NCBI GenBank assembly: GCA_037783415.1
Contig: JAZGTN010000028.1
Span: 887,001 to 951,000, forward strand
Reading direction: 5' to 3'
Length of the DNA: 64,000 nucleotides
Origin: Leptasterias polaris
Lineage: Eukaryota > Echinodermata > Asteroidea > Forcipulatida > Asteriidae
Made by a program: the position numbers and the translations under genes
Notes under the pieces: generated by a model
The model's database searches: none
The model's input: only the letters and a program-made list of their open reading frames with translations
Told to the model about the DNA's origin: nothing
In this document: positions 1,574 to 49,994 of the stretch, one piece after another
Numbering within the stretch: position 1 is the first letter of the stretch
How the letters are laid out: each line of letters starts with the position of its first letter

Positions 1574-4190
1574 CTAGTTCTTTGGTTTAGGCTTTGTCTT
1601 CTTTGGTTTGTATCTAGGTTTGGGTAAATTGTGAGACATCATTCCCTTGATCATGACATCTCGGGGGATGTTTTTTGTTGCATAACGTTTGACGACTTGT
1701 GAAAGAACTGTGCAGGGATGTGGACCAGGTTTCTTCGATTTCGAATTTTCAAAGCAGCACTGCTTGATCGCACTATCATTATCAGAACGGATGACATGTG
1801 CAATCCATCTTTCTTGTTGATCCTCGATAAATTCTTGTAGAGTTGCTGTGTTGCATTTCTCAAGTATACGTTGGTTTGTATGAATATACCTAAAAATTGT
1901 CTCGGGTGAGGTTTCGGGGTCACCCTTTTTCACACGTTGGAAACCGCCTTTGACCATATGTCGAAGGTATTTGACATACACAGAGTTCATTCTGTCCATC
2001 TGAGTAGTCGTTAATGTCCAGGTCTGAACGCCGTAGGTTAGGCGAGAACGAACAAGTGTATTGAAAAACGACGTACGGATGTGGAGTTGGATACTTCGGT
2101 TGGTGAAGAATGGTTTCATTTCATAAAACTTTGATCTTGCGGAGTTAATTCGGTTTAGGACTTCTTCGTTGCAGGTTCGAGGGGTACCATAGTTGAAAAC
2201 TGAGCCGAGATAGCGGAAGTTCTCAGCATTAATCAGATCTGTGTTTGCTATGGTACACAAAGTGGTCGGGTAGTTCTCGGTTGTATCGGTTAGGAGCATA
2301 GTCTCGGTTTTTGAGATGTTCATTTTCAACCCAAAACTGTTGAGGATCACATGGAGTATTTCAAGATTACGTTGGAGGTCAGCTTGACTATGTGCGAATA
2401 TGACAAGGTCGTCAGCATATCCGATCCATTTGATGAAGGATTGATTCCCGGATTGAGCTAGACGTCGCTTTAACCGATTGGCTCGAGATGTTGCGCTGTT
2501 TGGGATAAGAAATTCGAGTTTCACACCAGGGAGTCCTGCTTCGACGCAACGTTTTTCGAAAATCCTCATGATGTAGTCCATGTAGAGGTTGAAAAGATAA
2601 GGCGACTCTGGGCCACCTTGGCGGACTCCTGAAGATATGCGGAACTGATTTTCAGGGGGATCGCCAGAGATGTGGGCGGCTGTAGACTGATACAGTGATT
2701 CGATGATGTCGATTAGGAGGGAAGGCTGACCATCTTTAGCTAAACGCTGTTTGATTGAACGGAAGAGCCAGTCTCTGTTGACATGGTCGAAAGCGGCACT
2801 GAGATCAATGAACGATGTGAACAAGGGTTGGTTTGTTTTGTGTTGGACCTTTTTTACTGTTTGTAGAATATATGAAGCATCAGTGCAACCGCGATTGCTT
2901 CTGAATCCCATCTGGTATTCAAGCAAACTACTCTCATACCAGCCATCAATTCTTCGTAGTAAAATGCACATACAAACTTTCATAAGAATGGTTCCAATGC
3001 TCAGTCCTCTGTACATGGTCGGATCATTGGGCCGTCCCTTACGCTTCCATAAAGCCGTAATTTTTGCCAGACACCAAGCAGATGGTATTCCACCGAGCTC
3101 CCATACCTCTCGGAAGATTTCAGTCAACTCACGGACAGCAGCATCAGACATAATTGAGAGTTTGAGGATCTCACCAGGGATGTCTGTTGATGCTTTGCCA
3201 TTTTGTAGAGATTTGATAACAGTTACGATTTCCTGTGAGGATGGAGGGTCAGTAGACATTTTCTTGTCAGTGGGGAAGCTCAAGAACGAGATGTCATCGG
3301 ATAGAAGTTCTGGTGGGGTGGGTTTGTTTGAGAAATCAGGGTTGAAGTGGTTTTTAAAGTGGACATCGAGGCCTGGACACTTTATGGGTGGTGGACGTTT
3401 GTGGAGGGTAGTCGCCTGATTTTTGGCACGGATGTAAGCAGCTTCAATCTCTCGAGCTTCGTGAGCGAGGTTGAGAAGTTTTGCTTCTTGCCGGTAGTGC
3501 TCATTCCTGAGATATTTCACCCGATGTCTAATTTTGCGTTGCATCTGGCAGTACCGACGCTTGTCAGAGTTGAGCAGAGATTTTCGATCGGCTAATAGTT
3601 GCAATAAAACTTTGTCGTTGTCCCATGGGTGACTTTTGGTGGGGTTTCGAGAGAGTTTTGGAAAGGTTGCTTCCGCAGCGAATCTGATCGAATCAATCAG
3701 TTGGTCATGTCGTCTATTTAGATCAGTGGGAGTTTGGTAAGCATCGATTGTTTCAGTTACTGCCGCTGTAAAAGCATTCTGAATTGTGGTGTTATTGTTG
3801 TTTAAAGCACTTTTGAGGTCAAGACGCAGGGCTTTATTCTTTTTCATGGTCGGTATAAAACGGGCTGTCTTTGAGCGAGGTGTATGTAGTCGTAGTACAA
3901 GTAGCCGATGGTCGGAATGGAAGTCAAAGCTACATCGAACACGGCAGTCAAGGACATAGCGATGTAAGGTACGTGACGATATAGCCCAGTCTAAAGTTTT
4001 ACAGGTGACGCCGTCATTAGAATACCATGTATCGGTATGTTTACAGGGATGACAGAACCATGTGTTTGTCAAACAGAGCTTGCGGTCAGTGCAAAATTCA
4101 ATGAGCATTTCCCCGTTCTGGTTGTACACAAACTGATCGTTTGGAGAGTGGGGTTCACCTCGGAAGGATTTGAGACCGGTGATAGTGCTG
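1574..4190 (-). CDS. LINE ORF, 3' part: end of endonuclease, reverse transcriptase, C-terminal region
   Basis: This is codons 166-1037 of the LINE protein, which would copy LINE RNA into the genome at a nicked target. It opens in the second half of the APE-type endonuclease, with the SDH motif at about residues 258-260. The reverse transcriptase follows, with the FIDLSAAFD block near residue 628 and the YADD catalytic motif at 757-760 (plus positions 2408-2419). A basic C-terminal tail ends at the stop at 1574-1576. The frame is open throughout. An apparent ATG at 4268-4270 lies in the piggyBac end and is not the LINE start. The 5' part lies at 10653-11149, separated by the piggyBac insertion. 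Confidence 0.88.
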
Positions 4191-4208
4191 TTAACCACTT
4201 CACGTCGG
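4191..4208 (+). repeat. piggyBac left end: TTAA target plus 14-bp TIR
   Basis: TTAA at 4191-4194 is followed by CCACTTCACGTCGG (4195-4208). The reverse complement of this 14-mer, followed by TTAA, occurs at 10639-10656. TTAA duplication and a TIR starting CC are the signature of piggyBac elements. Confidence 0.93.
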
Positions 4209-4500
4209 ATGACGGAAATTTCCGCACAATTCTGCTGAACGGAGATACGGTTGACGTCGACATCCGTCATACAGCTTTTCGAAAATTGCTAACCGTGCTG
4301 CCTACGGACGTAAAAAGACGTCAAATTAGTGCATCCATTTGAGACGGATGACGTAAAAAGACGTACCGCAAAAACATTAGGGCTAGCCGGATGACGTTTA
4401 TAAACGATAAAAAGGTCAGGACATTGCGACGGTTGACGTAAAATTACGATGTAGTGGTTTAGTTCTCAGTCCGGCTGACGTAAAAAGACGTCACAACATC
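4200..4500 (+). repeat. Subterminal TGACGT / AAAAAGACGT repeats of the piggyBac left end
   Basis: About seven short imperfect repeats with the core GG(A/T/C)TGACGT, several extended to TGACGTAAAAAGACGT, lie near 4203, 4247, 4303, 4345, 4387, 4429 and 4472. Two related copies (near 10381 and 10422) lie by the right end in the same orientation. Subterminal repeats are commonly transposase-binding sites, which I infer here. The core also resembles a CRE/ATF site. Confidence 0.7.
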
Positions 4501-6048: not shown

Positions 6049-6082
6049 CTTGTTCAGTTGGTGGAGTCACACACATCAAATC

Positions 6083-7747
6083 ATGGCATCTTTGCGAGCT
6101 CAACGTGGTCGCAATAACTTTGTTGACGCTACTTCAAGTGGCTCCGAAGAGGAATCCTCTTCTTCAGAGTCAGACCCTGAAACAGATTCAAGTGATGAAT
6201 CAAGTGATGGGTCTTCTGCAAGTGTTCCAGCACAGGCAGCGGCACCAGTGCCTAATCCAGTAGTTTGGGCGGACCGAGACTGTTTTCCTCGCCGTTTTGG
6301 GTTTTCCGGTGGAGACGGTGTCCAAATAAACTTAGATGAGTCCAGCACAAAGCTTGATGTATTTCACGAATTTTTCTCCGAAGAGCAGTTTCAGAACATT
6401 GCCGATGAAACCAACAAGTTTGCCACTGACAACCCGCAAGACAATGATGGCAACCACATAAGAGACTGGTTTGACACGTCTGCCGACGAAGTGAAAGCAC
6501 TAATAATATCGCTGCACATTTTGATGGGTGTCACTACTAAACCAGATGTGCGATTCTTCTGGAGTAGGGAACCCATGATAGAGAGTCCATTTTTTGGAGA
6601 CACAATGCCAAGGGACCGGTTTCTGCAATTGCGAAGTTATCTCCACTTCAACAACAATGACAATGATGATGGAACCGATAGGCTGTACAAACTGCGGCCA
6701 TTCATTGATTCTGTGACTGAAAAATTCAAAACTGTGTATATTCCTTCACAAGATATATCCACTGATGAGTCGCTTTGGAAATTCCATGGGCGACTCAAGT
6801 TCAAACAGTTCAACCCTGCAAAAAGAGCACGATTTGGCATCAAGGTGTACAAGACATGCCAGAGCAGCGGTGAGGCAGCCGGGTACACATGGAACCTGAA
6901 GATCTACACTGGCGAGGACAGAGGTGCTCTTCTGGCAAGTACAAGTGCTGTTCTTGATCTGAACGAAGATCTACTCGACAAGGGGTACAACATCTTCGTT
7001 GACAACTGGTTTAGCAGCCCTGATCTGTTCCTCCGTCTTAGAGCCAGGCGCACCAATGCCTGTGGAACTGTCCGGCTGAACCGAAAGCAGATGCCGGCAG
7101 ACTTGAAAAAGGTCAAATTGAAGAAGGGAGAGATTGCCTACCGCTCCAGTTCAAGAGGTCTACTCGCACTTGTGTGGAAAGATAGGGAAGATGTGAGAAT
7201 GCTGTCAACCATGCACTCGGCATCGATGGAGGAGTCTAGAAAAAGAGACAAGGACGGAATCCCTGTTGAGAAACCTTCTTGCATCCTCGACTACAACAAG
7301 GGAAAGGGAGGAGTAGATCTGTCCGACCAACTTGCATCCTGCCACCGCAGTGTGAGGAGATCTGTGAAGTGGTACAAGAAGGTATTTTTCTATCTTCTTG
7401 ACCTTTGTTTGGTCAATTCATTCATCGTGTACAAGCTGCAGGGCCATGAACTACATTATTACGATTTTAGAATGTCTCTCGTCAGAGAAATTCTAGAGAC
7501 GGTCGCTTTGCCAGTTTATACTACCCGAGGAAGACCTCACGCACTACCCAGTCCAAATAGACTATCGGGAAGACATTTTCCCGTTGGTCTCCCGCCAACA
7601 GCCAACACACCGAGGCCTAGCAAGAGATGTGTAGTCTGCAAAGCATCAAAGAGGAGGAGAGAGACCAGGTACCAGTGTGACATTTGCAATGTTCCCCTAT
7701 GTATTGAGCCGTGCTTCAAGACATACCACACCGAGCGAGATTTTTGA
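6083..7747 (+). CDS. piggyBac transposase (554 aa)
   Basis: Cut-and-paste transposase acting at TTAA sites. The N-terminus is Ser/Glu/Asp-rich (about residues 15-45). The DDD catalytic domain follows, with Asp228 (TDESLW), Asp307 (VDNWFS) and Asp412 (GGVDLSD). The spacings of 79 and 105 are close to those of the cabbage looper enzyme (D268/D346/D447). The C-terminus has a Cys-rich zinc-binding segment starting CVVC and continuing CDIC...C, typical of the family. I chose the ATG at 6083 because it follows a TATA box at the right distance; the frame is open slightly further upstream but without another ATG. There is no internal stop and the length is normal, so the protein is probably functional. 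Confidence 0.94.
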   Translation: MASLRAQRGRNNFVDATSSGSEEESSSSESDPETDSSDESSDGSSASVPAQAAAPVPNPVVWADRDCFPRRFGFSGGDGVQINLDESSTKLDVFHEFFSEEQFQNIADETNKFATDNPQDNDGNHIRDWFDTSADEVKALIISLHILMGVTTKPDVRFFWSREPMIESPFFGDTMPRDRFLQLRSYLHFNNNDNDDGTDRLYKLRPFIDSVTEKFKTVYIPSQDISTDESLWKFHGRLKFKQFNPAKRARFGIKVYKTCQSSGEAAGYTWNLKIYTGEDRGALLASTSAVLDLNEDLLDKGYNIFVDNWFSSPDLFLRLRARRTNACGTVRLNRKQMPADLKKVKLKKGEIAYRSSSRGLLALVWKDREDVRMLSTMHSASMEESRKRDKDGIPVEKPSCILDYNKGKGGVDLSDQLASCHRSVRRSVKWYKKVFFYLLDLCLVNSFIVYKLQGHELHYYDFRMSLVREILETVALPVYTTRGRPHALPSPNRLSGRHFPVGLPPTANTPRPSKRCVVCKASKRRRETRYQCDICNVPLCIEPCFKTYHTERDF

Positions 7748-7883
7748 ACTGTATTGCATTGAACTGTATTGAACTGAACCGTATTGTAGTTGAACTTGTT
7801 TTAGCAAAGATGCCATGATTTGATGTGTAAAATATCTAGGGTACAACCATGTGTAAATATATTTTGGAATAAGAGTTGCCTCT

Positions 7884-7957
7884 GAAAAGAACCGTTGCTA
7901 AGATCTCAATATTTTTACTGGGGCAAAATATTGAGACCTTGGCAACGGCTCTTTTTA
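7884..7957. repeat. Hairpin 1 in piggyBac 3' region
   Basis: Imperfect inverted repeat with arms of about 30 nt built on AAGAACCGTTGC and GCAACGGCTCTT. Outer arms around it (about 7850-7880 and 7970-7996) also pair. Confidence 0.75.
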
Positions 7958-8201
7958 GGGCCAATTGTCCTTCCAAAATATGTTTACACATGGCAGTACC
8001 CAAAAATTTACTAGTGATGCCATGATTTGATTTGATTTGATGTGTATCAACTCTAGGGTATAACCATGTGTAAATATATCTCGTACTCCAATTCCCACTA
8101 CACCGTGCGCCCGGCCGACCACGCCGTGGCCCACGGCGGCTTTCACGCCTTCGGAGCCCTCCTTATGTTTTTCATTGTTTTCGCCGACTTGTACTTTTTC
8201 T

Positions 8202-8274
8202 GAAAAGAACCGTTGCCAAGATCTCGATATATTGACAGGGGCAAAATGTCGAGACCTTAGCAACGGCTCTTTTT
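8202..8274. repeat. Hairpin 2 in piggyBac 3' region
   Basis: Second copy of the AAGAACCGTTGC / GCAACGGCTCTT inverted repeat, within unit 1 of the duplication. Confidence 0.75.
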
Positions 8275-8489
8275 GTGCCAATTGACCAGAGATGTAATGC
8301 GAAGAAAGTCATATTATTTTATCTTGGCATTTTTTTCCTTGTCTTTATTTACATGCATTTGAAATTGGGACATACCACACCGAGCGAGATTTTTGAACTG
8401 TATTGCATTGAACTGTATTGAACTGAACTGTATTGTAGTTGAACTTGTTTTAGCAAAGATGCCATGATTTGATGTGTAAAATCTCTAGT

Positions 8490-8676
8490 GTAAAATCTCT
8501 AGGGTACAACCATGTGTAAATATATTTTGGAATAAGAGTTGCCTCTGAAAAGAACCGTTGCCAAGATCTCAATATTTTGACTGGGGCAAAATGTTAAGAC
8601 CTTGGCAACGGCTCTTTTTAGGGCCAATTGTCCGTCCAAAATATATTTACACATGGTTGTACCCTAGAGATTTTAC
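8490..8676. repeat. Long palindrome (hairpin 3) with 41-nt perfect outer arms
   Basis: Positions 8490-8530 are the exact reverse complement of 8636-8676 (41 nt). Inside them lies the third hairpin copy (8546-8619). The whole could fold into a stem of more than 70 bp with few interruptions. Confidence 0.88.
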
Positions 8677-8828
8677 TAGTGATGCCATGATTTGATGTGT
8701 AGAAACTGGTACAACCATGTGTAAATATATCTCGTACTCCAAGTCCCACGCCACCGTGCGCCCGGCCGACCACGGCGGCTTTCACGCCTTCGGAGCCCTC
8801 CTTATGTTTTTCATTGTTTTCGCCGACT

Positions 8829-16670: not shown

Positions 16671-16677
16671 ATAAAAC
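16671..16677 (+). repeat. 7-bp putative target duplication, left of P-like element
   Basis: ATAAAAC directly precedes the left TIR and recurs directly after the right TIR (22011-22017). Confidence 0.7.
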
Positions 16678-16712
16678 CAAAGATACTATAAAAGGAAGAT
16701 AGGACACTGTCG
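16678..16712 (+). repeat. Left 35-bp TIR of P-like element
   Basis: Starts CAAAGATACTATAAAAGG and ends GACACTGTCG. Exact reverse complement at 21976-22010. Confidence 0.9.
16687..16695 (+). promoter_or_regulatory. TATA box inside the left TIR
   Basis: TATAAAAGG lies within the TIR, about 170 bp before the transposase ATG. It could drive the transposase from within the transposon end. The right TIR carries the same box pointing inward on the minus strand. Confidence 0.5.
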
Positions 16713-16864
16713 TGCGCAAACGTGAAACGCAAAATGGCGGGAGCATGGAAGTGCGCCCGCTATTGTCGGGTAAGTAAAACCAAAGTCGTCTGCTCTGTGC
16801 ACTGCACTATGACTATGGAAAACTTACAACCAATAGGCAGCAAATAACGGCGAACACAGCAAAC

Positions 16865-16950
16865 ATGTGGTGCTCTGCCGTAAATTGTGTGAACAATTCA
16901 CAACGGAATTGTGATCTTCACTTCTACCGATTTCCAAAGTGCAAAGAAAG
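16865..16950 (+). CDS. THAP9-like P transposase, exon 1 (THAP domain start)
   Basis: Encodes residues 1-28 plus two bases, with zinc ligands Cys3 and Cys8 (C-x4-C) and the FYRFP motif typical of THAP DNA-binding domains. The donor is AG|GTAAGG. Two ATGs further upstream (16734, 16745) precede a strong donor-like CG|GGTAAGT near 16770; they may belong to an untranslated or alternative first exon, but no in-frame join to exon 2 is evident. Confidence 0.85.
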
Positions 16951-17516
16951 GTAAGGCGAATTTTATGGCAGAACATTTTGATGGAATAATGACATTAACA
17001 TCAGCACTCCAGGCAGAAATTGGGTGGAGTTGTTTTCTGCAAAATGTTACACAGGCATGACACATGCAGACATGATACATTAGGCTACTCTACATTGTTT
17101 TTTCATAGGATCAGGAAACAAACATTCATGACCCCAGAGTGCAGAATGGAGTAGCTGTGTGTGTGAGGATCATGTAAAATAGTTGTATCCCTCCCTTTTA
17201 CTCTTAAGAAAACAATTAAGCAGTGTTCCCTTTGTATTTATTCAAGCCATTTATGTTTTTATTTTGTAATTGACTTGGTCTTGGACTCTTGGATACTGGG
17301 CAGTGAGTGGGTGTGTAGAGTCATGAATGATGATCGCCTTAACATTTATAAACACTTAATAATTTATTTGTAATGTTTTGATAAATCAGGTCCACCCAAA
17401 TGACCCATCAAGATGGAGGTGTTTGTTTTTAACTTGGCCTATAGTATTTGTTTGGTCTGCACAGATCACATGGGTTTATTATGATGTTTTTGTTTATTTC
17501 ATTTGTGGTACCACAG

Positions 17517-17755
17517 ATCAGACCGATGGGTTCAATCAACAAGAAGAGAAGATCTCCGGAACAAGTCACCAAAATACTTACGCAATAATTGCAGAATCTG
17601 CTCAAAGCATTTTGAGCCATCCCAGATTTTGTGCACTGGTAGACTGGTTTGGAATGCGGTCCCTACAATTTTCAACATACCAAATCCACCAAAGAAGGTG
17701 ACTTTGAAGCGGAAACTACCCAGCAGACATGTCTCCATAAAAAGATCTAAGACAG
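17517..17755 (+). CDS. THAP9-like P transposase, exon 2 (rest of THAP domain)
   Basis: The acceptor after CCACAG joins exon 1 in frame. It supplies the rest of the C2CH THAP zinc finger: Trp33, Cys57 and His60 in the CSKHF motif, and the AVPTIF motif at 76-81, followed by a Lys/Arg-rich linker. This domain should bind the transposon ends. The donor is CAG|GTATTG. Confidence 0.88.
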
Positions 17756-18055
17756 GTATTGTTTTGTTGAACCTGCTTTGTTGAAATTTTTTTAATTTTT
17801 GTCTTTTCCAAATTTGTGAACTACATGTCAAATTAAATTTACTTATTGGAAAAATTGATGTTGACAGAATTAAGATGAGTGGGTGACAATCGAGTTTGAA
17901 GTTACTATTACTGGTTGTCATCCACAAATCTATTATTATTAGCTATGCAGAAATAATAATGGTGCTTGCCCAGGTGACAAGAAAAGGAGGAAAAAATGAG
18001 TGAAGTATTTTATATGTTGATTTAAATCAAGCTTTTTAATTTTTCATCATAACAG

Positions 18056-18229
18056 TTGAAAACGATTTAGCTTCTGGAGGAGAACACAGTGGGGTAAAGG
18101 CAGACCACACCTATGCAAAGAGAGACAATGTACAGCGCAAAGTACCACAACCAGACACTCAAGATCATGTGGACATCACAGACCAAGAATCTGATGTAGA
18201 CCACATTAGCTCATTCTATAATGAACCAG
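18056..18229 (+). CDS. THAP9-like P transposase, exon 3
   Basis: Acidic linker (Asp/Glu-rich) in frame with exons 2 and 4. The donor CCAG|GTAAAG is at 18229/18230. The following 210 bp (18230-18439) has intron borders but no stop in frame. Confidence 0.8.
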
Positions 18230-18439
18230 GTAAAGATAACATGCAAATGATATCCATACACATTCAATCCAGTAGACCCTTTTGGCTAGGAAATGCCCAC
18301 TTCATCCCTGTAATAAAATATTACAAAGAAACTATTGCCTTTTGTTTGCATTTTAAGTCATACTCAGTTGGCTTTGATACCTGGATTTGGATTTCCATAA
18401 TCTCAGCCATGTTTCATTCCATTTTTCTTAATACTTCAG
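18230..18439 (+). other. 210-bp intron without in-frame stop
   Basis: GTAAAG donor, pyrimidine-rich TTAATACTTCAG acceptor, and length divisible by three with no stop, so retention would add 70 residues without a frameshift. Its translation is hydrophobic and unlike the flanking protein, which favours an intron. Confidence 0.65.
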
Positions 18440-20658
18440 TGGAGGATGTAAAGCCTGGTCCAGATACTGCAAAAGAGAATGCTGGTCAACGTACAAAACC
18501 CAAAGTGTCTACACACAGAGTAAAGATTCACAGACTAAAGGGGAAGATCAAAACACTTACAGCATCATTAGAGAAAGCTTCCAAGTCTGGATCAATCAAT
18601 AACATCATCAAGAATGCAAGTACATACCTGGACACAAGCACTTTAGATTTCTTTGCTAACCAGCTTAGAATAGGTAAGCAGCGTTTGAAGGGCAGACGAT
18701 ACACAAACAAGGATAAACTCTTTGCCTTTGCCCTGCACTACCAAAGTCCGAGTGCTTATAGGTTTTGCCGCAAAAATTTTGCTTTGCCATGTGAGAGATC
18801 TCTTCGAAGATGGCTGGAAAAAGTGAGAGTACAGCCTGGCTTTAATAACACAAGCTTTGAAATATTGCAGCGAAAGGCTAAAACTATGTCCGAAAGAGAT
18901 AAAGTTTGCGTATTAACACTAGATGAAATGAGTCTTAAGTCAGGGCTGTACTATGATTTGCAAAAGGACATCATTGAAGGAATGGAAGATTTTGGCTCTC
19001 TTGGCAAGTCCAAAAATTTGGCAACTCAAGCACTTGTATTCATGGTACGAGGCCTTGCATGTAAGTGGAAGCAACCAGTGGGTTATTTCTTGGCTAATGC
19101 AGCTACACCTGGCAGTAAACAAAAGGTTCTCTTACTTGAATGCATTAAGAAAATAGAAGATGCAGGCTTCACTGTAAAGGTAGTCATTGGGGATCAGGGA
19201 TCAAACAATCGAAAAATGTTTCGTATGATGGGTGTGAATGCAGACAAGCCATTCATTGAGAGAAAGACAAGTGAAGGTAATGTCCAGAAGGTATACTGCA
19301 TGTTTGATCCACCTCATCTGTTGAAGAGTGTCCGCAACAACTTGAAAAAGCACATTTTTGTAGTGGATGGACACGAAGTTCATTGGAATTACATTGTTGA
19401 GTTTTACAATCATGACTCCAAGTTGCCTCTCAGAATGGCACCCAAGTTGACAGCCAAACATATAGAGCTCCCACCATTCACAAAAATGAGGGTTTGCCTT
19501 GCTTCCCAGGTCATGAGCCATAGCGTGGCATCTGGGATACTAACCTACTCTTCACTTGGTAAATTACCATCAGAAGCAGTGTATACTTCTGAGTTTCTAG
19601 AGAGGATGGACAAACTTTTTGATTCCTTTAATTCAAGAAAATTGAGGGAAACTAAAATATACAGAGCAGCAGCAACACCAAGCTCAGTTCATGTTAGCTT
19701 CTGGAAAGATTGTATTGAATGGATAAAGAAATGGAAAGTAAAAGAAGGGTCTACAAACAAAATTGCTTGCATTCAGGGATGGGTAACCACTATCACAGCT
19801 GTTGTCCAATTGTTTAATGAGTTGACCACTGGGGACCAGTTCTCATTTCTCCTGACAAACAGGCTTAACCAAGATTGTCTGGAGAATCTATTCTCGATTA
19901 TCAGAAGCAGGGGAGGGCATAGAGATAACCCCACAGCAAATGAGTTTAGAGCAGCTTTGAAACAAGTAATGTGTAGTAAAATGATGGCCCCTCTGGGAAA
20001 TCAAAATTGCGAATCAGACAGTGATAGTTTTCTGGACTTGACAGCTCCTTTAAAATCACAGGGAAATTCTGGAACCTCTGAGGGGTCTACAGAAAAGAAT
20101 GATGACCATTTCAATCATATCTGTGATAACTTGGATAAAATGATAGACGAACCTCAAAAAAATGTAATAGTGTATGTGGCTGGTTATCTGGCCAAGCAGA
20201 TACTTGCAAAGCATCAAAATTGTCAGATTTGTAAAAATGCATTGTTGAAAACCACTGCTGTAGGGGGCATATTCATGGAAGATCCATCTGAACTACTATT
20301 ACATTATAAGGCCTACTGTGTTGAGGAATCAGATTTTGGTGGTTTAACTGCTCCTAGTGACAATTTTTCTGACTTTGTTGTTGTATGTGAGAAAGTGTTT
20401 GTCAAATGTTTTAATGATTATTTCCACATCAATGCTATCGGCAAAAGGATTGTAGAAAGAATCCGTATTGGTTTAACTAATAATAATCTTCATCTTGATT
20501 TGTGCAGTAGTGAAATGATAACATCGTTCATCTCTTTTTTTGTGAGATTTAGGTTGCATGCTGCGGTGAAATTTTATAACAAGAGCTTGCTTACAAAAGT
20601 TGGGGACAAGAAAGTGAAAAGGAAGACTAGAAAGTTGGTAAAAATTTCTCATCTGTAA
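18440..20658 (+). CDS. THAP9-like P transposase, exon 4 (catalytic domain)
   Basis: Encodes the bulk of the 905-aa protein (human THAP9 is about 903 aa). After a basic coiled segment (Lys-rich, about residues 180-220) come the P-transposase hallmarks: Asp328 in TLDEMSLKSGLYYD, Asp418 in IGDQGSNN, Asp456 in FDPPHLLKSVRNN (the insertion/GTP-binding region follows), and the NQDCLENLFS block with Asp645 and Glu648 followed by RSRGGHRDNPT. The acidic residues fit an RNase H-like catalytic core. The stop TAA is at 20656-20658. There are no frameshifts. The enzyme would cut and paste this element; in THAP9-like host genes the same fold persists without TIRs, but here TIRs are present. Confidence 0.92.
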
Positions 20659-20689
20659 TTCCTGTAATCTATAATCGATAACCCATGAC

Positions 20690-21180
20690 GGACAAGGCTA
20701 GTAGTGGGGGGGGGGGGGGGTCACTGGTTACGCCACTGTTGATTAAGTAGTAATATTTATATATATTATTATTATTATTATTATTATTGTTATTATTATA
20801 TAAGATTATTATTAGTTAAACCAATATGGATTCTTTCTACAATCCTTTTGCCGATATATATATATATTTCATTGGATATATATATATATATATATTTCTT
20901 TAACATATCTATATGTTTATTTATTAATATGTATTTATTGTTTACAAATAACCAGACTTTTTTTGGGGGGGGGGGGGCGGCAAGCGGGACAAAGACATAA
21001 TTTGGAGGGGGCTGTTTAATGTATCAAACCATTCATTTGTTCATTTGTTAAGTAAAGTAAGTAATAACAAGGACTTAATATATATGTTTATTAAATATAT
21101 ATATAATATATGTATGTACAAATATGTATATATCTACTAATTCATATGTATTTATTGTTTACAAACAAATGGGTTAATCA
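20690..21180. repeat. Microsatellite-rich 3' region of P-like element
   Basis: G homopolymers near 20705 and 20965, ATT repeats around 20765-20790, and TA repeats near 20855-20895 and 21095-21120. Confidence 0.75.
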
Positions 21181-21535
21181 ATTACAGATGGGTCAAATTG
21201 CATGGCTCTGCTTACTGCAGAATTTTGCATAAGCAGAGCCATGGATTTGGTCCCAGCTGGTCATTAATTGAACCTTCTTACTGTCTGTAACAAACTTGCA
21301 AGTGATGATTAAAAGTGATTGATGCACAGGATACAATGTCATACTTTTGCACTTTGTTGGTTTTTAAAAGATCCAAGTATTCAGTATCCCCATCTCACCA
21401 CATTTACTATGAAATTAAAAGCTTTTGAAAACTACCTAAAATATATTGGTATAGGAACCCTTTCCCCCAGCCAGGCAGGGACAAAAATAAAATAAGATTA
21501 AGGAATCAAAGATTGCCACTTGTAGACAATTGTGC

Positions 21536-21740
21536 AGAAACACCCCTTTGAAATCCTTAAGAAACAACCTTTCAAATCCAAGAAACACCATTTTAAATCC
21601 ATGAAACACCCTTTGAAATCCAAGAAACACCCTTTAGAATTTTTAAGAAACACCCTTTTAAATCCAAGAAGTACCCTTTTAAATTTTTAAGAAACACCCT
21701 TTTAAATCCTTAAGAAACACCCTTTTAAATTCTTAAGGAT
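21536..21740 (-). repeat. 25-bp AAGAAACACCCTTTTAAAT tandem array
   Basis: About eight diverged units of AAGAAACACCCTTTTAAATCC inside the P-like element, 240 bp from its right TIR. Confidence 0.8.
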
Positions 21741-21975
21741 TTTTTTTCATATCATTCTAAGATGGATATTATACAGTATGTATAATTTCAATCACAGTTA
21801 GTCTTTTGGACCTTTGTTTTGAACGCAAATTGCCAATTTGCCATGACCCTCCTATTTATTTCTATACTGCGTTAACGTCGTCTGCTTCGTTTTACTTGCC
21901 CACCGGGTGATGGCGCCCTTCCCCATGTTCCAATTGTGCTGAGTCATCGCGTTACAACGGCTGTGTGCAAAAAAG

Positions 21976-22010
21976 CGACAGTGTCCTATCTTCCTTTTAT
22001 AGTATCTTTG
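21976..22010 (-). repeat. Right 35-bp TIR of P-like element
   Basis: Exact reverse complement of 16678-16712. Followed by ATAAAAC (22011-22017), matching the 7 bp left of the element. Confidence 0.9.
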
Positions 22011-22099
22011 ATAAAACTCAGCGGTAGATTGTATTTCTAGGCATAACTCATAATTATTGTGCACAACCATGACAACAGGCCTTGTATGATGGTCAGAAT

Positions 22100-49194: not shown

Positions 49195-49850
49195 GTTCCA
49201 TAGGCTCTAGGCACCAGGGATCTTTAGGCCCTAGGCACCAGGGATCTTTAGGCCCTAGGCACCAGTATTCAATAGGTCCTAGGCACCAATGTTTCGTATC
49301 CCCTTGGCACAAGTGTTCCGTAGGCCTTAGTCACCAGTGTTCCAAAGGTCCTAGGCACCAGCGTTCCATTGGCCCTAGGCATCAGTGTTTGGTTGGCCCT
49401 AGGCACCAGTGTTCCGAAGGGCCTAGGCACCAGTATTCCATTGGCCCTAGGCATCAGTGTTTGGTTGGCCCTTGGCACCAGTGTCCTGTAGGGCCTAGGC
49501 ACCGGTATTCCATTGGCCCTAGGCATCAGTGTTTGGTTGGCCCTAGGTATCAATGTTTCGGAGGTCCTAGGCACCAGTGTTCCACAGGTCCTAGGCACCA
49601 GTGTTTCGTATCCCCTTAGCACAAGTGTTCCGTAGGCCTTAGTCACCAGTGTTTCACAGGTCCTAGGCACCAGCGTTCTATTGGCCCTAGGCATCAGTGT
49701 TTCATGGGCACTAGGCACCAGTGTTTTGTAGGCCCTAGGTATCAGTGTTTTGTAGGCCCTAGGCACCAGTGTTTCATAGGCCCTAGGTATCGGTGTTCCA
49801 TAGGCCCGAGGCACCAGTGTTCCATAAGCCCTAAGCTCCAGGGCCAAGTT
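49195..49850. repeat. 24-bp minisatellite (AGGCACCAGTGTTCC...GGCCCT)
   Basis: About 27 diverged copies of a 24-bp unit built on GGCCCTAGGCACCAGTGTT. Because the period is a multiple of three, both strands read open for 145 and 194 codons as 8-residue repeats. I do not regard these as genes. A single related sequence (CCATAGGCCCTAGGCCTAG) lies at 50026-50044, just downstream of the PAN3 stop. Confidence 0.9.
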
Positions 49851-49994
49851 CATAGTGATTTTAAGTGCTGGATTTGACTACAATGTATTACACGTATTGA
49901 AGTTTGCGGTAAGCTTTGTTCTAGTCTGAAGCTTAGCCAAAGTCCAAACAGACACATTTCCTTTCTTGTGTGTGTATGTGTGTGTGAGTGCCCT

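Follow-up and report, generated by a model that had tools for sequence, protein, structure and literature searches.

A complete multi-intron transposon of the P superfamily is present in the genome of the sea star Leptasterias polaris, at positions 16678-22010 of the window (the whole stretch of DNA that was analysed, 64,000 nucleotides of contig JAZGTN010000028.1), confirming what an initial annotation had read from the sequence alone, including its placement of the element outside insects. We are highly confident that this is an autonomous-type cut-and-paste element, and that it has been mobile in the recent past. The observations behind this explanation are the ends of the element, its target-site duplications (TSD), the empty sites of one copy, near-identical copies dispersed in the genome, the domains of the encoded protein, and its catalytic and GTP-binding residues.

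The element is bounded by 35-bp terminal inverted repeats (TIR) at 16678-16712 (+) and 21976-22010 (-), which match each other at 35 of 35 positions. Directly outside them lies the unstranded direct repeat ATAAAAC, at 16671-16677 on the left and again at 22011-22017 on the right; both the identical TIRs and the 7-bp repeat had been reported in the initial annotation, and both hold. An 8-bp TSD with a shifted TIR was considered and discarded, since shifted registers of the window sequence give no direct repeat. In having TIRs flanked by a TSD in the 7-8 bp range, the element conforms to the P superfamily. Further inside, segments at 16747-16783 (+) and 21886-21922 (-) are 70% complementary over 37 nt and constitute a candidate subterminal inverted repeat; by eye, a GGCGCCCTTC block resembling the right arm can also be recognized in four diverged ends elsewhere in the genome (L018-L021, see below). 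The 3’ region includes a minisatellite (21544-21740, +; self-repeat family D1) with units of approximately 21-23 bp, within which the window copy is 42 bases shorter than three other copies (C219, C150 and C6) in the copy alignment. The stop codon is enclosed by a hairpin, with one 55-nt arm in the coding end (20436-20490, +) and the other 3’ of the stop codon (20802-20856, +). The arms are 98% complementary, their RNA fold has a z score of -11.7 against shuffles, and the hairpin was found in all four copies that extend that far. This inverted repeat could be a source of double-stranded RNA within the element’s own transcript.

The gene lies on the + strand, and consists of four exons with GT..AG introns that join into one frame of 905 residues, as the initial annotation had proposed. 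Exon 1 (16865-16950) encodes the start of the THAP finger (C3, C8), exon 2 (17517-17755) the rest of it (C57, H60, AVPTIF), and exon 3 (18056-18229, with AG/GT borders) a linker in the joined translation, while exon 4 (18440-20658) carries the helix-turn-helix (HTH), the RNase H residues D328, D418 and E648, the GTP-binding insertion, the C terminus and the stop codon. Intron 3 (18230-18439) is 210 nt long, in frame and stop-free, inside a continuous open reading frame (ORF) at 18040-20658, so that its retention is predicted to yield 975 aa. We infer its removal from its splice sites and from the segment having no counterpart in any of the seven homologues compared. In Drosophila P, retention of the third intron produces a shortened repressor, unlike the stop-free intron 3 of the sea star element.

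Pfam domains are found in the order THAP (PF05485, residues 3-81, E 1.2e-13), P-element HTH (PF12017, 4.5e-12), RNase H N, GTP-binding insertion (PF21788, E 3e-21) and RNase H C. The protein thus has the two P-superfamily traits of an N-terminal C2CH THAP finger, whose full extent the initial annotation had rightly recognized, and an HTH. In a five-row alignment, residues W33, C57, H60, F61 and P78 of the finger are invariant; C3 and C8 are present in the window sequence, but their columns are not invariant. The label “THAP9-type” fits the protein by domain order. The closest match among solved structures is Drosophila P transposase (6p5a, E 2.5e-45). By alignment mapping, D328, D418 and E648 correspond to D230, D303 and E531 of 6p5a, which we take to be the catalytic positions of Drosophila P transposase; all three are thus kept, and the acidic blocks of the initial annotation stand up to a residue-by-residue check. 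Seven of the eight GTP contacts of Drosophila P, as listed in PMC7776569, are identical, with the exception of K400, which maps to R517.

To place the element in its genome (629,726,417 bases in 334 contigs), we searched for further members of its family, hereafter family A; the copy counts of this search are lower bounds. The 83-bp left end occurs at 100% identity in at least five places (8 of 8 candidates scored), well beyond what chance would give. The five copies (the window copy, C219, C150, C6 and C58) lie on different contigs with different flanks, and the GT donor of exon 1 is retained in all of them. Three copies have both ends, each with a perfect 7-bp TSD of its own: CTGCTAC in C219, ACACTAC in C6 and ATAAAAC in the window. 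The right end is wholly or partly lost in the other two, C150 having a right TIR without its outer 12 bp, and C58 ending at element base 3774, which cuts the frame. The full frame and splice sites are found in four of the five copies, encoding 905 aa in the window, C150 and C6, and 907 aa in C219 owing to 6 extra nt in frame. Over the first 3,774 nt, substitutions relative to the window copy number 4 (C219), 3 (C150), 5 (C6) and 3 (C58). Several almost identical copies in one starfish genome indicate that the element jumped recently.

The C219 copy sits inside a repeat whose uninterrupted copies represent its empty site. When its flanks were joined with a single CTGCTAC and used as a query (40 of 45 candidates scored), the best uninterrupted match elsewhere was 100% identical over 300 of 300 bp; of the 40 matches listed, 28 had at least 90% identity over at least 286 bases spanning the junction. 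The insertion of C219, and the 7-bp duplication that came with it, are therefore well supported. These copies bear directly on the alternative that the locus is a domesticated THAP9-like host gene flanked by repeats through chance, as the initial annotation had allowed for a single-copy locus with coincidental TIRs. An intact frame with introns and a THAP9-like domain order would suit such a gene. Against it, the sequence occurs in five near-identical copies, spread over different contigs and all sharing one left end; three of these have both TIRs and a TSD of their own, and empty sites are known for one. A domesticated single-copy THAP9 gene lacking TIRs is thereby ruled out, and we consider a domesticated host gene extremely improbable. 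Among other matches, nine right ends were listed with 71-80% identity to family A; four of these (L018-L021) were examined as possible family A insertions and rejected, since they have flanking letters in common and no TSD, and appear to belong to a different repeat.

Recent mobility does not by itself imply present-day activity, for which family A is only a candidate. One substitution is common to all four other copies, and is thus private to the window copy: it gives the HTH its N279, a residue that is I in the other copies and in two database homologues (P0001 and P0002), so that the window copy itself may be impaired. The “candidate active” label of the initial annotation can then be kept as a candidacy, with recent mobility added to it and with this private HTH residue as a caveat on the window copy. 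A family that was recently mobile and is now dead, leaving young relics that are silenced or disabled (for instance by N279), would be compatible with our preferred explanation, and we regard it as a real possibility, if somewhat short of an even chance. The finding of just five copies, two with a damaged right end, and the private N279 of the window copy are in its favour, whereas frame and splice sites are whole in four copies and both TIRs are intact in three, the fourth full-frame copy having a right TIR that is truncated on its outer side.

A related family in the same genome, family B (L027-L044, L054 and L055), has 45% amino acid identity to family A. Searching the genome at the protein level, with 50 of 220 candidates scored, gave 18 long copies (L027-L044), whose alignable segments have 99.7 to 100% identity to L028, taken as reference. 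The element is approximately 6.5 kb long, with identical 53-bp ends and a THAP exon, and its TIRs have the CAAAGAT tips and AAGATAGG in common with those of family A. With 40 of 69 candidates scored, at least 25 left ends are 100% identical over 200 bases. Of the two families, B is thus the better candidate for being mobile today.

The two families allow a comparison of target duplications. The initial annotation passed over the 7-bp TSD as ordinary; it is instead unusual for P/THAP9 elements, as Drosophila P and the zebrafish element Pdre2 make 8 bp. Family A departs from this 8-bp trait in all three copies with both ends. For family B we examined 22 sites, chosen from a larger number because both ends fell on one contig. 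The duplications were perfect at all 22, measuring 8 bp at 19 and 7 bp at three (GTTGTAC, ATTATAC and GTAGTAC). Position 2 is T and the penultimate position A in 20 of the 22 targets, with a full GT..AC in seven. At the 19 8-bp sites, the third base beyond the duplication is T on the left side in 13 and A on the right side in 17, and the target palindrome measures 14 bp. In family A, the left flanks end in AC in 5/5 copies, while their first two bases are CT, AC, AT, CC and GT.

Since 7 bp makes up 3/3 sites in family A and 3/22 in family B, the spacing of target cuts seems to differ between these related families of one genome, despite their common TIR tips. This could reflect sampling, if 8 bp were the norm in family A too, with occasional 7-bp events as in family B: family B has 7 bp at some of its sites, and family A sites with both ends are only three. 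The difference in proportions speaks against it (one-sided Fisher p = 0.0087, from a small sample and with a test picked post hoc), and we consider a sampling effect unlikely. We lean neither way on the broader proposal that cut spacing in the P transpososome is easily shifted, family A giving 7 bp on targets constrained just to ..AC and family B mostly 8 bp with slips to 7 on GT..AC, that 7 bp is consequently no marker of the Galileo/1360 branch, and that both families may still move.

We also built a tree of 38 rows, with Galileo, 1360 and vertebrate THAP9 left out. It places family A together with P0001 and P0002 (93% and 87% identical across approximately four fifths of the window protein), joined next by families B and D with support of 82/64. 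All of these lie inside a group of 12 that includes a brittle-star protein; Drosophila P sits on a very long branch, and its position is unsure. Of 135 proteins, 120 were listed, mostly unnamed, and none of these carried a vertebrate THAP9 or Galileo name. Family D (L046) lacks the CAAAGAT tip in the DNA examined. The genome also has a third P-transposase family, family C (L057; contigs C2, C22, C37, C38 and C57), with approximately 31% identity and an open frame of approximately 817 aa in several copies; no TSD was seen at the one inverted repeat of family C examined.

Other sequences were noted in passing. In the window, 6050-7744 (+) is an open 565-aa frame for a piggyBac-type transposase (DDE_Tnp_1_7, E 8e-84), adjoining repeated inverted arms at 7827-8737. 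An open 903-aa frame at 1577-4285 (-) has a reverse-transcriptase domain (RVT_1, E 9e-32) and is probably a non-LTR retrotransposon, and a degenerate short-repeat frame (LVPRAYGT-like) at 49272-49874 (-) that matches a cornifin model is probably a coding-looking minisatellite. Read with the echinoderm code (TGA Trp, AAA Asn), 447 residues of the mitochondrial COX1 of this genome are 100% identical to Asterias amurensis in a database clustered at 90%, and the next named rows are the sea stars Zoroaster ophiactis at 98% and Meridiastra gunnii at 97%, which marks the host as a sea star but does not fix its species. In addition to the COX1 match on C334, contig C318 has a full-length match and several partial ones; those on C318 could be either concatenated mitochondrial DNA or a nuclear insertion.

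For transposition of family A, we envisage the following course. The spliced 905-aa protein would use its THAP finger and HTH to bind subterminal DNA, and GTP in the insertion domain would allow the two element ends to be paired. D328, D418 and E648 would then cut the DNA. The ends would be joined to the target across a 7-bp stagger, and repair would leave the 7-bp duplication.

Family A resembles Drosophila P in its HTH, its D/D/E split RNase H, its GTP-binding insertion and its THAP finger, and the TIR lengths are similar, at 35 bp and 31 bp (PMC7776569), although sequence identity between the proteins is low. The TSD differs, being 8 bp in Drosophila P (GTCCGGAC, PMC3276498) and also in Anopheles P (PMC1562414). 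Family B and Drosophila P both have a GT..AC palindromic target consensus, with a motif length of 14 bp reported for Drosophila P (PMC3276498); relative to family A, family B has 53-bp instead of 35-bp TIRs, and an 8-bp TSD at 19 of 22 sites instead of 7 bp.

Galileo (GTANTAC, PMC4168063) and 1360 (GTTNAAC, PMC3276498) have 7-bp TSDs that end in AC, like the NNNNNAC of family A. Galileo has long Foldback-like TIRs, in contrast to the 35 bp of family A, a comparison made by description only; in D. willistoni its TSDs are mostly 7 bp, with 8 bp in three copies (PMC4168063). The disagreement between the 8 bp of Drosophila P and the 7 bp of 1360 has been remarked upon, with no explanation given in the available portion of that report (PMC3276498). 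Families A and B, related, both young, of different modal spacing in one genome, and with B flexible, offer natural pairs for mapping the determinants of spacing.

Zebrafish Pdre2 (zfTHAP9) is, like family A, a P-superfamily transposon from outside insects with TIRs and TSDs. It differs in its 13-bp TIRs, its distant 12-bp subterminal repeats and its 8-bp TSD, and the available part of its description reports excision but not integration (PMC10983969). With this element already published, the novelty claimed in the initial annotation was too strong. A sea-cucumber preprint describes THAP9 orthologues with a P-transposase domain and echinoderm “THAP gene expansions” (PMC13228809), some of which may be transposon copies. 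No mobile P element of echinoderms or sea stars appeared in titles or the beginnings of abstracts among the open-licence papers listed. Intact, recently mobile P elements of echinoderms add a source of transposases to those of flies and fish. P elements outside insects being already known, what is new here is a recently mobile sea-star member and, next to the 8 bp of Drosophila P and Pdre2, the contrast of 7 and 8 bp between its families.
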